Positions 22,625 through 25,852 of a stretch of DNA of 36,139 nt are shown here, piece by piece. The notes below the pieces were generated by a model. That model did no database searches, was not told the DNA's origin, and saw only the letters and a program-made list of their open reading frames with translations. The translations under genes and the position numbers were made by a program. This stretch comes from a virus: IMG/VR virus record IMGVR_UViG_3300027580_000010, positions 1 through 36,139 of that record. One strand, given 5' to 3'. Numbering within the stretch: the stretch's first letter is position 1; each line of letters opens with the position of its first letter.

Positions 22625-23674
22625 TTAGGGGCTCTCAGTGCTTTCGACGTCCTGTATATCGACGGGGCCGATGTGCTCGGTGGCGGCCTTGGGGTCGCCC
22701 TGCACGAAGATGTATGCCGTGCGGTGCGCTCGCGGTAACGGGTGGCCGCCCTCGGGCTCGTGGATGAGGACGGCCTCATTGTAGTAGCGCCAGCCGAGGG
22801 CGGCAGCGACGTCCTTGATGCGCTCGTCCGGGCGCTCGCCGGCCGGCGCGGGGGCGACTACCACGGCGAAGCGGTCCTCGTGCAGGGCCTGCGCGGCTGC
22901 CGCCAGCTCAGCGCGCCAGGCGTCGTCCACCTCCTGCGGGGCGAAGGCGATAACGAGGTCGCTGGCGTCTCCGTCGGTGTGCCGGTTCAGCGCGCGGGCT
23001 ACTCGTGGGCCCATGGCGGTGTCGCCGAGGTGGTGGACGGTGTCCTGGGCGCCGGCGTGCCATGTGATAAGCAGCTCGTGGAGCGCGGGGCTGTCGGCGA
23101 GGTCCTCGCCGGGGGCGACGCCGGCTTGATCCCACTGGGTCTCGCGGTCGGCCCACGCGGCGTCCCGGGTGTCGATGATGCTGAACGGGGGGCGGAGGAA
23201 GCGCTCCGCCATCGGCGTCGGATCCTCCTCCTCGTCGTCCTCCTGGCTCTCGTCCTCGGGGGCCTCCTCGCCGGGCGCGAGGTCGGCGATTAGCTCCTGG
23301 AGCGCGTCCTGCTCGGCGCTCGTGTCCTCAAGGAGCTGGCGGAGGGCGTCGTCGTCGGTCGTAGCGTCGGCGGTGATGGCGTCGTGGCTGGCGAGCGCCA
23401 GGGCCTCCTCGCGCTCGGTCAGCTCGACGACGGCCACCGGGATCGTGTCCTCGCCGTGGGCGATGGCCTGCTCGACGCGCAGGTGTCCGTCGATGAGCCG
23501 GCCGGTCGTGCGGTTGAGGATGGGCTCCCGGACCCAGCCTACCTCGCGGAGCGCGGCGTCGACGTAGCGGCGCTGGGCGTCGGGGTGCCTCCTCCAGTTG
23601 CCCGGGTGGGGGGTCAGCTCGCGCGGGTCCCGCTGCGTGTGCTCGGCGATGCGGTCGTGCAGGTCGTCGCTCAT
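22625..23674 (-). CDS. ParB-domain protein with degenerate methyltransferase-like half
   Basis: A 349-residue paralogue of the neighbour at 23690-25852. Residues 15-95 are the ParB/Srx-like domain: LTPHPGNWRRHPDAQRRYV, REPILNRTTGRLIDGHLRVEQA. After an acidic linker, residues 155-340 align with the neighbour's methyltransferase part: FSIIDTRDAAWADRETQW, then ASDLVIAFAPQ where the neighbour has YDLLFSCPPY, ALHEDRFAVVV, WRYYNEAVLI and YIFVQGDPKAATE. The SCPPY motif and the DPFAGG loop are both missing, and there is no PLP domain. So it cannot be a normal methyltransferase; it may be a specificity or regulatory partner. GGAG is 8 bp before ATG. Confidence 0.85.
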   Translation of the reverse strand: MSDDLHDRIAEHTQRDPRELTPHPGNWRRHPDAQRRYVDAALREVGWVREPILNRTTGRLIDGHLRVEQAIAHGEDTIPVAVVELTEREEALALASHDAITADATTDDDALRQLLEDTSAEQDALQELIADLAPGEEAPEDESQEDDEEEDPTPMAERFLRPPFSIIDTRDAAWADRETQWDQAGVAPGEDLADSPALHELLITWHAGAQDTVHHLGDTAMGPRVARALNRHTDGDASDLVIAFAPQEVDDAWRAELAAAAQALHEDRFAVVVAPAPAGERPDERIKDVAAALGWRYYNEAVLIHEPEGGHPLPRAHRTAYIFVQGDPKAATEHIGPVDIQDVESTESP

Positions 23675-23689: not shown

Positions 23690-25852
23690 TCAGCCCTTGG
23701 CGAAGACGAGGACGTTCTGGTGGGCCCGGCCGAGCTTGCGGCTGGCCTGGAAGGCGGGGCCGGCCCGTATCGGGAGCGAGCCGAGCGGGGTGATGAGCAC
23801 GGCGTCGGCGACCAGGCGCAGGCCGGCCTCCTGGAAGGCGCGGATGGTGTCGCCGACGAAGTCCCGGTAGATGCCCTGCCGGTCGCGGACCTCGCTGACG
23901 ACCCAGACGGCGTAGCGGTCCTCGCGGAGAGCGCCGGCGGCCTCCTGGATGATCGTGCGGTAGGCGCCCATGAAGTCGGGGTAGTCCATGGCGCTGATGT
24001 CGCCGGGCTCTTGGCTGTAGACCTCGAGGTCGGCGTAGGGCGGGCACGAGAAGAGCAAGTCGTATTCGCCTGGCGCCAGGGTGGCTACGTCCTGGCCGTC
24101 GCCCTGAATCCACTGGGGCTCTGGCATGCCGCTCGGGGCACCCTGGGCGCTGCGCTGGGCGTCGGCGTGCTCGGTGCTGGGCTCCTCGGTCTGGCGCCGG
24201 CCGACGACCCAAAAGAGGTCGCCCGGCTCAACGTAGGGGGCGGCCTTGCCCTCGTAGTGCGGGTCGAGGGTGATGCCGTGCCAGGTGTAGGGCTGCGCCT
24301 GATCGTAGGACGTCGGGCTCGCCTGGAGGGTGACGCGGCGGCGCCAGTCGGCCGGGGCGTAGGTGTCGAGGCGCTCGGTGGGGTCGGCGCCGACGGTGAT
24401 GCCGAGGACCGGGGTCTCGCGGCCCTGGTCGGCGAGGCCGTGGAGGATGCCGGCGAGGGTCATGCCGCTGCCGACGGCGAGGACGATGCGCTGGGCGTCG
24501 GCCGGGATCTCGGCGACCTGTCGGCGGGTCTGCTCGACGGCCTCCTGGCACTCCATGCCGAAGGGGATCTCGGTGAAGCCGCTCTCCCGCGCGTCGTCTC
24601 GGGCGCGCTTGCGGATGACGCTGTTGCGGCCGGGCGTGTGCTGCACCACCTCGGCCCCGGCCTGTTGGGCCTGGATCAGCTCCGGGGTGAGCTGACCGCT
24701 GGGGACGTGGACGCGGCAGGGGACGCCGTGGGCGCGGGCGATTCCGGCGACGATATTGACCTGGGGGCTGTGCCGGGCGCCGGCGGTGACGAGGCCGGCG
24801 GCGCCGGTCGCCAGGGCGCGGGCGGTGCGGACTTTGCCGCCGCGGGAGCCGGCGTAGGCGTAGAGGTCATCTCGCTTGGCGTAGCAATCGCCGTGCGCCT
24901 CGATGGGGGTGAGGTCTGGGGTGTGATCCTCTGGCCCCGGCTCCGGCCCGGTATCGTGCGGGGGCTCGATCTCGTTCCAGTTGGCGCGGTTGGCCTCCAC
25001 CTGCTCCGGGCGCAGCTCCACCCCCGTGTACGGGTAGCCGGTGAGGGCGGCGACGATCCCGCGCACGCTGCCGCCGGCGAAGGGGTCGAGGACGCTGCCG
25101 CCCTCGGGCGCGAACCAGCGGTAGACGGCCTCGCAGAGGACGGGGTCGAAGACGCTGGTAGTGCCGAGGGGGAGGTCGCCGGGGTACTGCTCGGCGAACT
25201 CGGCCCAAGTATACTCCCGGCCGTCCTCGCGCTCGCGCTCGCGCTTGCGGTCGTATGCGGCGCCGGTCTGGCAGCTCGCGCTGTAGGTCAGCTCCTCGTC
25301 GCGGCCGATCTCGCTGCGGATCCCGGTGGCGATCCAGGCGCGCTTGCGGGCCTGCCACTCGCCCTGGCGGGCGTCGAGGATCGTGCTCGGGGGAATAGGG
25401 AGCGGGCCGGCGAGGGTGGGCTGTCCGTCGTCCCCGAGACCGTAGGCTGCCGCCTGCTGGGCCAGGTACTGCTGGAGGTCGGCGTCGCCGGCGCGGAGCT
25501 CGGCGAGCAGGGAGCGGGCGGCGTCGGAGTCGGCCTCGGCGTAGCCGGCCATCGGGTCGAGCGTGGCGAGGACCAGGCGCTCCTCGGCCTCGTCGAGGTC
25601 GACGTAGGTGACGGGGACGCTGGGCTCGTCGCGGCGGAGGGCTAGCTCGACGCGGAGGTGGCCGTCGATGACGTGGGCCGTGCGCTCGTTGACGAGGACC
25701 GTCTCGGTCCAGCCGATCTCGCGCAGGGCGCCCTCGAGCGCGCGCTGCTGGTGCTCGGGGTGGAGTCTCCAGTTCGCCGGGTGGGCGAGAAGCTGCTGGG
25801 GGTCCTCGGTCCCCGATCCCGTGATGCGGTTGCGGAAGTCCCTATCGCTCAT
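23690..25852 (-). CDS. ParB domain - DNA methyltransferase with inserted PLP-dependent enzyme domain
   Basis: A 720-residue protein. Residues 15-105 are a ParB-like domain (LLAHPANWRLHPEHQQRALE, VLVNERTAHVIDGHLRVE). The methyltransferase follows: PSTILDARQGEWQARKRAW, SVFDPVLCEAVYRWFAP, motif I VLDPFAGGSVRG (254-264), YTGVELRPEQVEANRANW. It resumes after residue 580 with WIQGDGQDV, FSCPPYADLEVYS (catalytic SCPPY, 602-606) and RKLGRAHQNVLVFAKG. Between them, residues 325-550 are a fold type II PLP enzyme: AKRDDLYAYAGSRGGKVR (Lys340 as probable Schiff-base lysine), GLVTAGARHSPQVNIVAG, and phosphate loop VLAVGSGMTLAGIL. ATG 25852 overlaps the amidase stop. A DNA base modification role is inferred; substrate unknown. 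Confidence 0.9.
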   Translation of the reverse strand: MSDRDFRNRITGSGTEDPQQLLAHPANWRLHPEHQQRALEGALREIGWTETVLVNERTAHVIDGHLRVELALRRDEPSVPVTYVDLDEAEERLVLATLDPMAGYAEADSDAARSLLAELRAGDADLQQYLAQQAAAYGLGDDGQPTLAGPLPIPPSTILDARQGEWQARKRAWIATGIRSEIGRDEELTYSASCQTGAAYDRKREREREDGREYTWAEFAEQYPGDLPLGTTSVFDPVLCEAVYRWFAPEGGSVLDPFAGGSVRGIVAALTGYPYTGVELRPEQVEANRANWNEIEPPHDTGPEPGPEDHTPDLTPIEAHGDCYAKRDDLYAYAGSRGGKVRTARALATGAAGLVTAGARHSPQVNIVAGIARAHGVPCRVHVPSGQLTPELIQAQQAGAEVVQHTPGRNSVIRKRARDDARESGFTEIPFGMECQEAVEQTRRQVAEIPADAQRIVLAVGSGMTLAGILHGLADQGRETPVLGITVGADPTERLDTYAPADWRRRVTLQASPTSYDQAQPYTWHGITLDPHYEGKAAPYVEPGDLFWVVGRRQTEEPSTEHADAQRSAQGAPSGMPEPQWIQGDGQDVATLAPGEYDLLFSCPPYADLEVYSQEPGDISAMDYPDFMGAYRTIIQEAAGALREDRYAVWVVSEVRDRQGIYRDFVGDTIRAFQEAGLRLVADAVLITPLGSLPIRAGPAFQASRKLGRAHQNVLVFAKG

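Follow-up and report, generated by a model that had tools for sequence, protein, structure and literature searches.

We have analysed a tailed-phage record from IMG/VR in which one reading frame joins a ParB-like domain, a DNA methyltransferase (MTase) fold and, inserted within the latter, a complete fold-type II PLP enzyme domain, and we confirm that this ParB-MTase gene with its inserted domain is real and far beyond chance. We propose, with a probability of roughly 55%, that the product is a self-contained phage DNA hypermodification enzyme in which the MTase fold would pass an arm of SAM, aminocarboxypropyl or aminopropyl, on to the amine of a DNA base and the PLP domain would perform a decarboxylation. 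For the broader statement, that phages possess a DNA-modification class in which MTase-fold aminopropyl- or aminocarboxypropyltransferases act on SAM or decarboxylated SAM, with decarboxylation by either SpeD or a PLP domain that is often fused, we see an even chance.

The window, that is the whole stretch of DNA analysed (the 36,139 bases of the record), carries terminase, portal, head, tape-measure, RusA and amidase genes as found in tailed phages. The fusion gene and its parts, together with the gene directly downstream, are as follows.

23690–25852, minus strand: ParB / MTase-fold / PLP fusion gene, 720 amino acids plus stop counted from the ATG
25472–25798, minus strand: ParB-like domain, residues 19–127, matching the PHROG ParB families phrog_15396 and phrog_620
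24968–25405, minus strand: N-terminal half of the MTase fold, residues ∼150–295 (motif X FDPVL, motif I, motif II), from phrog_498, phrog_12517 and alignment with insert-free MTases
25070–25087, minus strand: motif I DPFAGG (256–261), followed by SVRG with Arg264, the site of the G261/R264 versus D261/F264 partner comparison
24185–24928, minus strand: inserted fold-type II PLP domain, residues 309–556 (approximate), from PF00291, the AlphaFold2 model and the structural match to 1j0a
24833–24835, minus strand: Lys340, the predicted Schiff-base lysine (GGK at 338–340)
24449–24472, minus strand: GSGMTLAG (461–468), the predicted PLP phosphate loop (G461 in 83/83, S462 in 79/83 and G463 in 81/83 family members)
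24245–24256, minus strand: YEGK (533–536), set beside 1j0a, the counterpart of the ACC deaminase Tyr-Glu pair and of Y-T-G-K in 1j0a
23693–24124, minus strand: C-terminal half of the MTase fold, residues 577–720 (motif III onwards), within a phrog_498 match to residues 557–720
24035–24046, minus strand: motif IV CPPY (603–606; SCPPY at 602–606)
22625–23674, minus strand: second ParB protein whose MTase-like part is degenerate, with neither motif I nor CPPY (phrog_498 at 6.6e-28, matching best on its ParB side)

The frame of the fusion gene is also open from a GTG 45 codons upstream of the ATG. DPFAGG, SCPPY and GGK with Lys340 lie where the initial annotation had placed them, and the GSGMTLAG that it named is present; its PLP-like stretch of about 225 residues between the MTase motifs holds as to identity but not as to size, since motifs I and IV are spaced by ∼340 residues of which the PLP domain makes up ∼245. 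Alignment with relatives lacking the insert locates the insertion after motif II and before motif III of the MTase. The profile phrog_498, annotated as 'DNA methyltransferase', is matched at 5e-92 in three stretches that cover both MTase halves, and the fusion architecture recurs in other viruses at 44–57% identity. The rear part of the second ParB protein weakly resembles the MTase family, with a weak match to the C-terminal half, and weak MTase-like neighbours are also observed beside the fused genes of loci L014, L049, L054, L070, L074 and L090. Judged from its sequence, the second ParB protein is possibly a non-catalytic partner subunit of the fusion protein.

The proposal that a fold-type II PLP enzyme resides within a ParB-MTase beside terminase genes is borne out by both profile and structural comparison. 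PF00291 (PALP) matches residues 321–493 of the fusion protein (E 2.6e-13) with 50.4 bits, above the cut-off of 35. An AlphaFold2 model of the fusion protein reaches a pLDDT of ∼95 over the PLP part and 82 overall, with a pTM of 0.46, and VIA-align superimposes the predicted PLP domain on the ACC deaminase homologue 1j0a with a Z score of 25.1 (256 residues, 3.0 Å) and on D-cysteine desulfhydrase with a Z score of 24.6. A profile scan of IMG/VR built from seven closer PLP sequences yielded 108 relatives of the domain, of which 80 were kept. S362, Q364 and PFGM (430–433) are retained in all 83 PLP domains compared, Lys340, the lysine singled out in the initial annotation, as well as Y533, E534 and K536 in 82 of the 82 informative rows, and the GSG of the phosphate loop in 79–83 of 83. 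As far as sequence can indicate, the conserved positions are those expected from a functioning fold-type II PLP enzyme. The nearest cellular enzymes are deaminases and lyases; the domain scores 29–33 bits against the D-cysteine desulfhydrase/ACC deaminase families TIGR01275, TIGR01274 and NF003030, which have cut-offs of 289–429, and 38 and 36 bits against the 450 set for D-cysteate sulfo-lyase CuyA / XcbE. The same kind of scan of 84,980 bacterial and archaeal species detected three loci only, and the PLP-domain family is therefore essentially viral.

PLP domain and MTase are coupled recurrently across viruses, in fused and in separate form. At least 58 loci have the PLP domain within the MTase and in 69 the two are separate genes of the same locus, including gp1/gp2 of Mycobacterium phage Vincenzo, so that the separate-gene homologues for which the initial annotation had suggested a search do exist. 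IMG/VR contigs are redundant and in many cases fragmentary. A scan with the MTase only, seeded with PLP-associated MTases and hence biased to those, gave 79 loci with a PLP gene in 50, of which 49 encode a divergent subtype B with the motifs GGTK, GSGVLARGL and YDAK; in this set the PLP and MTase genes mostly share a strand and overlap or adjoin each other. Against PALP, five subtype B representatives reach 34–48 bits, four of them above the cut-off of 35, and in Erythrobacter phages R6L and ZS04 subtype B is itself inserted into the MTase at the same site. On a tree of 94 MTases the fused or separate state changes at least 12 times and the PLP subtype, A or B, at least eight times. The coupling is probably functional, because fusion changes this often, and repeated fusion combined with subtype exchange argues for a common reaction path of PLP domain and MTase. 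A single composite active site made up of the PLP pocket and SCPPY, as had also been envisaged, is not indicated: motifs II and III flank the insert, many phages encode the two parts as separate genes, and the model leaves the placement of the domains uncertain (pTM 0.46).

The MTase can occur without PLP or SpeD, as 47 members of the MTase set have neither partner; for these, the possibilities include decarboxylated SAM made by the host, acp left as it is, and simple methylation. Among them are phages such as phiFL3A, B054 and HCTV-2, with no SpeD in the whole record and no PLP among the matches listed. Inspected by eye, with part of the clusters named, the neighbours of the PLP-MTase pair are mostly terminase, portal and separate ParB genes, and no third recurrent biosynthetic gene was seen; those of the partner-less MTases, likewise by eye, include terminase small subunit-like genes, one PP-loop protein and others. 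The PP-loop ATPase-like gene (VVLFSGGKDG), which follows a partner-less MTase in L171 from ∼9746, is possibly another partner. In Haloarcula virus HCTV-2 (L190, 2477–3118) a second AdoMet-MTase gene directly follows the ParB-MTase gene. A gene with the APPCTHFS motif, resembling cytosine-C5 MTases, stands between separate PLP and MTase genes in L005 (1281–1949), and a PAPS-reductase-domain gene lies near the fused gene of Erythrobacter phage R6L (L008, 3055–4098), its ZS04 counterpart being annotated merely as misc_feature. In L004 (10602–13106) a DNA polymerase frame opens with residues resembling the ParB-MTase N-terminal segment (IPPFTVFNAREGWWQDRKAAWLALGIQSELGR); a pair of separate PLP and MTase genes without this segment lies 1.1 kb away. 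PLP genes of the same family are also present without an MTase of the family studied here, in a 257-kb viral contig (L048, 8953–9822) and in the shorter records L061–L063 and L088.

The partner exchange which most strongly shaped our interpretation occurs in a sister clade. In Pseudomonas phage ZRG1 and Croceibacter phage P2559S a PLP-free MTase of the same family is overlapped by a SpeD gene, by 38 bases in P2559S. Scans started from these two MTases, with the reference phages counted in, returned 92 MTase loci with SpeD in 72, nearly always overlapping or directly downstream; at 90% identity these form 61 clusters, with SpeD in 43 and PLP in one. The ESH self-processing motif is present at 70 of the 72 SpeD loci, and Pfam confirmed SpeD identity in seven examples. 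SpeD and PLP were found together at no locus of the MTase sets scanned. SpeD belongs to another MTase clade than that of the window, being absent from the PLP-less MTase records of the first MTase scan and, in 50 whole records drawn mostly from the other MTase clade or its PLP, present in ZRG1 and P2559S only. The P2559S enzyme restored spermidine in an Escherichia coli speD mutant, identifying it as a bona fide AdoMet decarboxylase, and phage SpeD genes are interpreted as polyamine enzymes in the same study (PMC9992855). A spermidine synthase SpeE (PF01564) above the cut-off was detected in none of 48 records, comprising the window and 47 related records, 44 of them from the SpeD-clade scans. 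On this sequence evidence, the exchange of SpeD and PLP points to the PLP domain being a decarboxylase acting on a SAM-derived aminocarboxypropyl group. Of the role in DNA hypermodification assigned to the PLP domain by the initial annotation, the general part gains from relatives in known hypermodification clusters (see below), whereas the SpeD exchange favours a decarboxylase over the making or attaching of a free amino acid.

The MTase itself has a normal overall fold and unusual motifs. Its model is nearest to the N2-guanine RNA MTases TrmN, Trm14 and Trm11 (Z scores of 18–20), a likeness that would fit an exocyclic amine as the target and that does not indicate which base. PF01555, the family of N6/N4 DNA amino-MTases, reaches 22.4 bits on the fusion protein, under its cut-off of 26.7, the motif order being permuted and split by the insert. 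Motif I of the family is without the usual GxG, and motif IV departs from the (D/N/S)PPY of amino-MTases, in which D, N or S occupies the position of C603; the cysteine is present in 243 of 245 MTase relatives with any partner. This near-universality led us to reject the CPPY cysteine as a mark of the PLP-paired MTases. Motif I does differ by partner, reading DPFAGGSVRG in PLP-partnered MTases (G261/R264 in 124 of 126) and DcFAGDsVFG in SpeD-partnered MTases (D261/F264 in 72 of 72), differences which are confounded with descent because SpeD versus PLP partnering is a single switch on the MTase tree. We infer that R264 could take the SAM carboxylate and D261 the bare amine of decarboxylated SAM, as the arm-transfer hypothesis predicts; a change in charge of this kind would be expected where the donor is decarboxylated SAM rather than SAM.

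The closest phage relatives of the PLP domain are encoded in genomes with thymidine hypermodification. The domain matches phrog_3650 at 6e-37 and phrog_7093 at 1e-14, to which the PLP enzymes of Salmonella phage Vi01 and the M6-like phage SN1 belong. Lee et al. reportedly described enzymes of this kind in thymidine hypermodification pathways as decarboxylases of DNA-linked amino acids. Vi01 DNA carries 5-NeOmdU (PMC11721090), the SN1 PLP gene is part of a thymidine-modification cassette (PMC9476957), and in Glutamicibacter phage Montesquieu a PLP gene lies right after aGPT-Pplase2. Vincenzo gp2, encoded beside a ParB-MTase, groups with the Montesquieu and Vi01 enzymes (97/95) on a tree with several long branches in which the placement of SN1 is not firm. 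ADDT (PF18724) was found in none of 34 PLP-family records by a profile that detects it in Vi01 and SN1 and misses the divergent Montesquieu copy, and thymidylate synthase/hydroxymethylase (PF00303), detected in all three reference phages, is likewise absent from the 34. The known thymidine hypermodification pathway was rejected for the PLP domain as both transferase and synthase are absent in these records, and the amino-acid part must consequently have another source. SAM is the obvious donor.

A different origin of the amino acid, in which the PLP domain would attach or process it on the base and the MTase would flip or methylate the base, is unlikely, while ranking first among the alternatives. 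Serine or cysteine could, for instance, be the source in a beta-substitution, a reaction for which willardiine-type synthases provide a model. Beta-elimination and beta-substitution are common reactions of fold-type II enzymes, D-cysteine desulfhydrase and ACC deaminase are the closest in fold, and related PLP enzymes occur in thymidine hypermodification clusters that are amino-acid-based. However, this reading leaves unexplained both the replacement of PLP by SpeD beside the same MTase family and the altered motif I, and no other recurrent amino-acid-handling gene was seen in the neighbourhood. Second in order, and improbable, is an ordinary amino-MTase carrying out N6-adenine, N4-cytosine or N2-guanine methylation, with a PLP domain that is regulatory or catalyses an unrelated side reaction. 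The many relatives without PLP and SpeD, the normal overall MTase fold and the annotation of phiFL3A gp36 as adenine methyltransferase are in its favour, but PLP catalytic residues kept in essentially all copies, the CPPY motif IV and a motif I lacking GxG are not what it predicts.

Following these in likelihood, we doubt that PLP and SpeD both serve to use up SAM, whether to counter SAM-dependent defences of the host or to boost polyamine levels, beside an ordinary MTase. Phage SAM-degrading enzymes are known, T3 SAM lyase being one. Phage SpeD genes are read as polyamine enzymes (PMC9992855), yet the tight overlap and the at least 12 inferred fusion changes involve an MTase that itself needs SAM, the 48 records contain no spermidine synthase above the cut-off, and ParB and MTase point to DNA. 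That the MTase was fortuitously linked to an auxiliary metabolic enzyme, either ACC deaminase or D-cysteine desulfhydrase, is very improbable, as the nearest characterised fold matches and the weak NCBIfam matches from which it derives are offset by scores of about one-tenth of the equivalog cut-offs, by recurrent fusion and adjacency and by the rarity of the PLP family in cellular organisms (3 loci among 84,980 species).

Arm transfer to DNA with decarboxylation is the simplest reading because it accounts for the PLP domain, SpeD and ParB as well as for the unusual MTase motifs and the absence of pathway genes. The ParB part and the MTase fold would bind phage DNA, a base would be modified at its exocyclic amine by transfer of the three-carbon arm of SAM in place of a methyl group, and the built-in PLP domain would do the decarboxylation, such that the base may end with a 3-aminopropyl arm. 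In the order that we favour, the acp (3-amino-3-carboxypropyl) arm of intact SAM would be transferred and then decarboxylated on DNA by the PLP domain, because Arg264 by motif I could bind the SAM carboxylate and because related PLP enzymes act in DNA-hypermodification clusters with DNA-linked substrates. In the other order the PLP domain would first make decarboxylated SAM, as SpeD would for the sister clade. At SpeD-type loci decarboxylation of the donor would have to precede transfer, whereas at PLP-type loci either order may apply. Several observations count against arm transfer: SpeD versus PLP is one switch on the MTase tree, 47 MTases have neither partner, PLP genes also occur in a few records without this MTase (e.g. 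L048), and decarboxylation is unusual for PLP enzymes of fold type II, the nearest cellular ones being deaminases and lyases.

To our knowledge, the aminopropyl arm of SAM is so far known from polyamines and, in the acp form, from RNA and small molecules, and we found no description of the PLP- or SpeD-partnered MTase system in the open-access literature. If arm transfer is correct, polyamine chemistry would be used to write on DNA, with aminopropyl base modification by a single phage protein, and a PLP domain nearly missing from cellular genomes would gain a role. Part of the phage SpeD genes, now taken as spermidine enzymes, would be reinterpreted, the protein would offer a compact enzyme for placing a reactive primary amine on DNA, and the DNA-modification class would be one that is widespread among phages and so far undescribed.

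Among known systems, a close parallel for the PLP domain is the thymidine hypermodification of Salmonella phage ViI (5-NeOmdU) and Pseudomonas phage M6, which uses a related fold-type II PLP enzyme (phrog_3650, phrog_7093) and whose known products carry a primary amine, as would the product proposed here. That pathway starts from 5-hydroxymethyl-dU and employs a kinase and an amino acid:DNA transferase, whereas here ADDT and synthase/hydroxymethylase are absent and it is a ParB-MTase to which the PLP enzyme is linked. The SpeD and SpeE route to spermidine, in which the donor is decarboxylated first, resembles the present proposal as an alternative way to an aminopropyl group, and in the carboxyspermidine route the product is decarboxylated by a PLP decarboxylase. 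Both differ in that here the proposed acceptor is DNA and the putative transferase a phrog_498 MTase, and the carboxyspermidine-route PLP decarboxylase has the alanine-racemase fold rather than fold type II. ACC deaminase and D-cysteine desulfhydrase share the fold (Z scores of 24–25), the Schiff-base lysine, the phosphate loop and the Tyr of YxGK; the PLP domain is ∼80 residues shorter, falls far under their curated scores, has its own SPQ motif and is fused to an MTase. In the CmoA/CmoX/CmoY system for 5-carboxymethylcytosine a DNA MTase homologue likewise adds a non-methyl group from a phage-made SAM derivative, with ParB genes nearby, but CmoX is a C5-cytosine MTase using carboxy-SAM (PMC12783734) and the MTase here is of the exocyclic-amine type, with CPPY and a PLP or SpeD partner. 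The phage ParB-MTases (phrog_498), such as gp77 of Listeria phage B054, likewise combine ParB with an MTase that has FDPVL, motif I and CPPY, and their genes are often close to those of terminase; the fusion protein differs by the complete PLP enzyme that separates its motif II from motif III.
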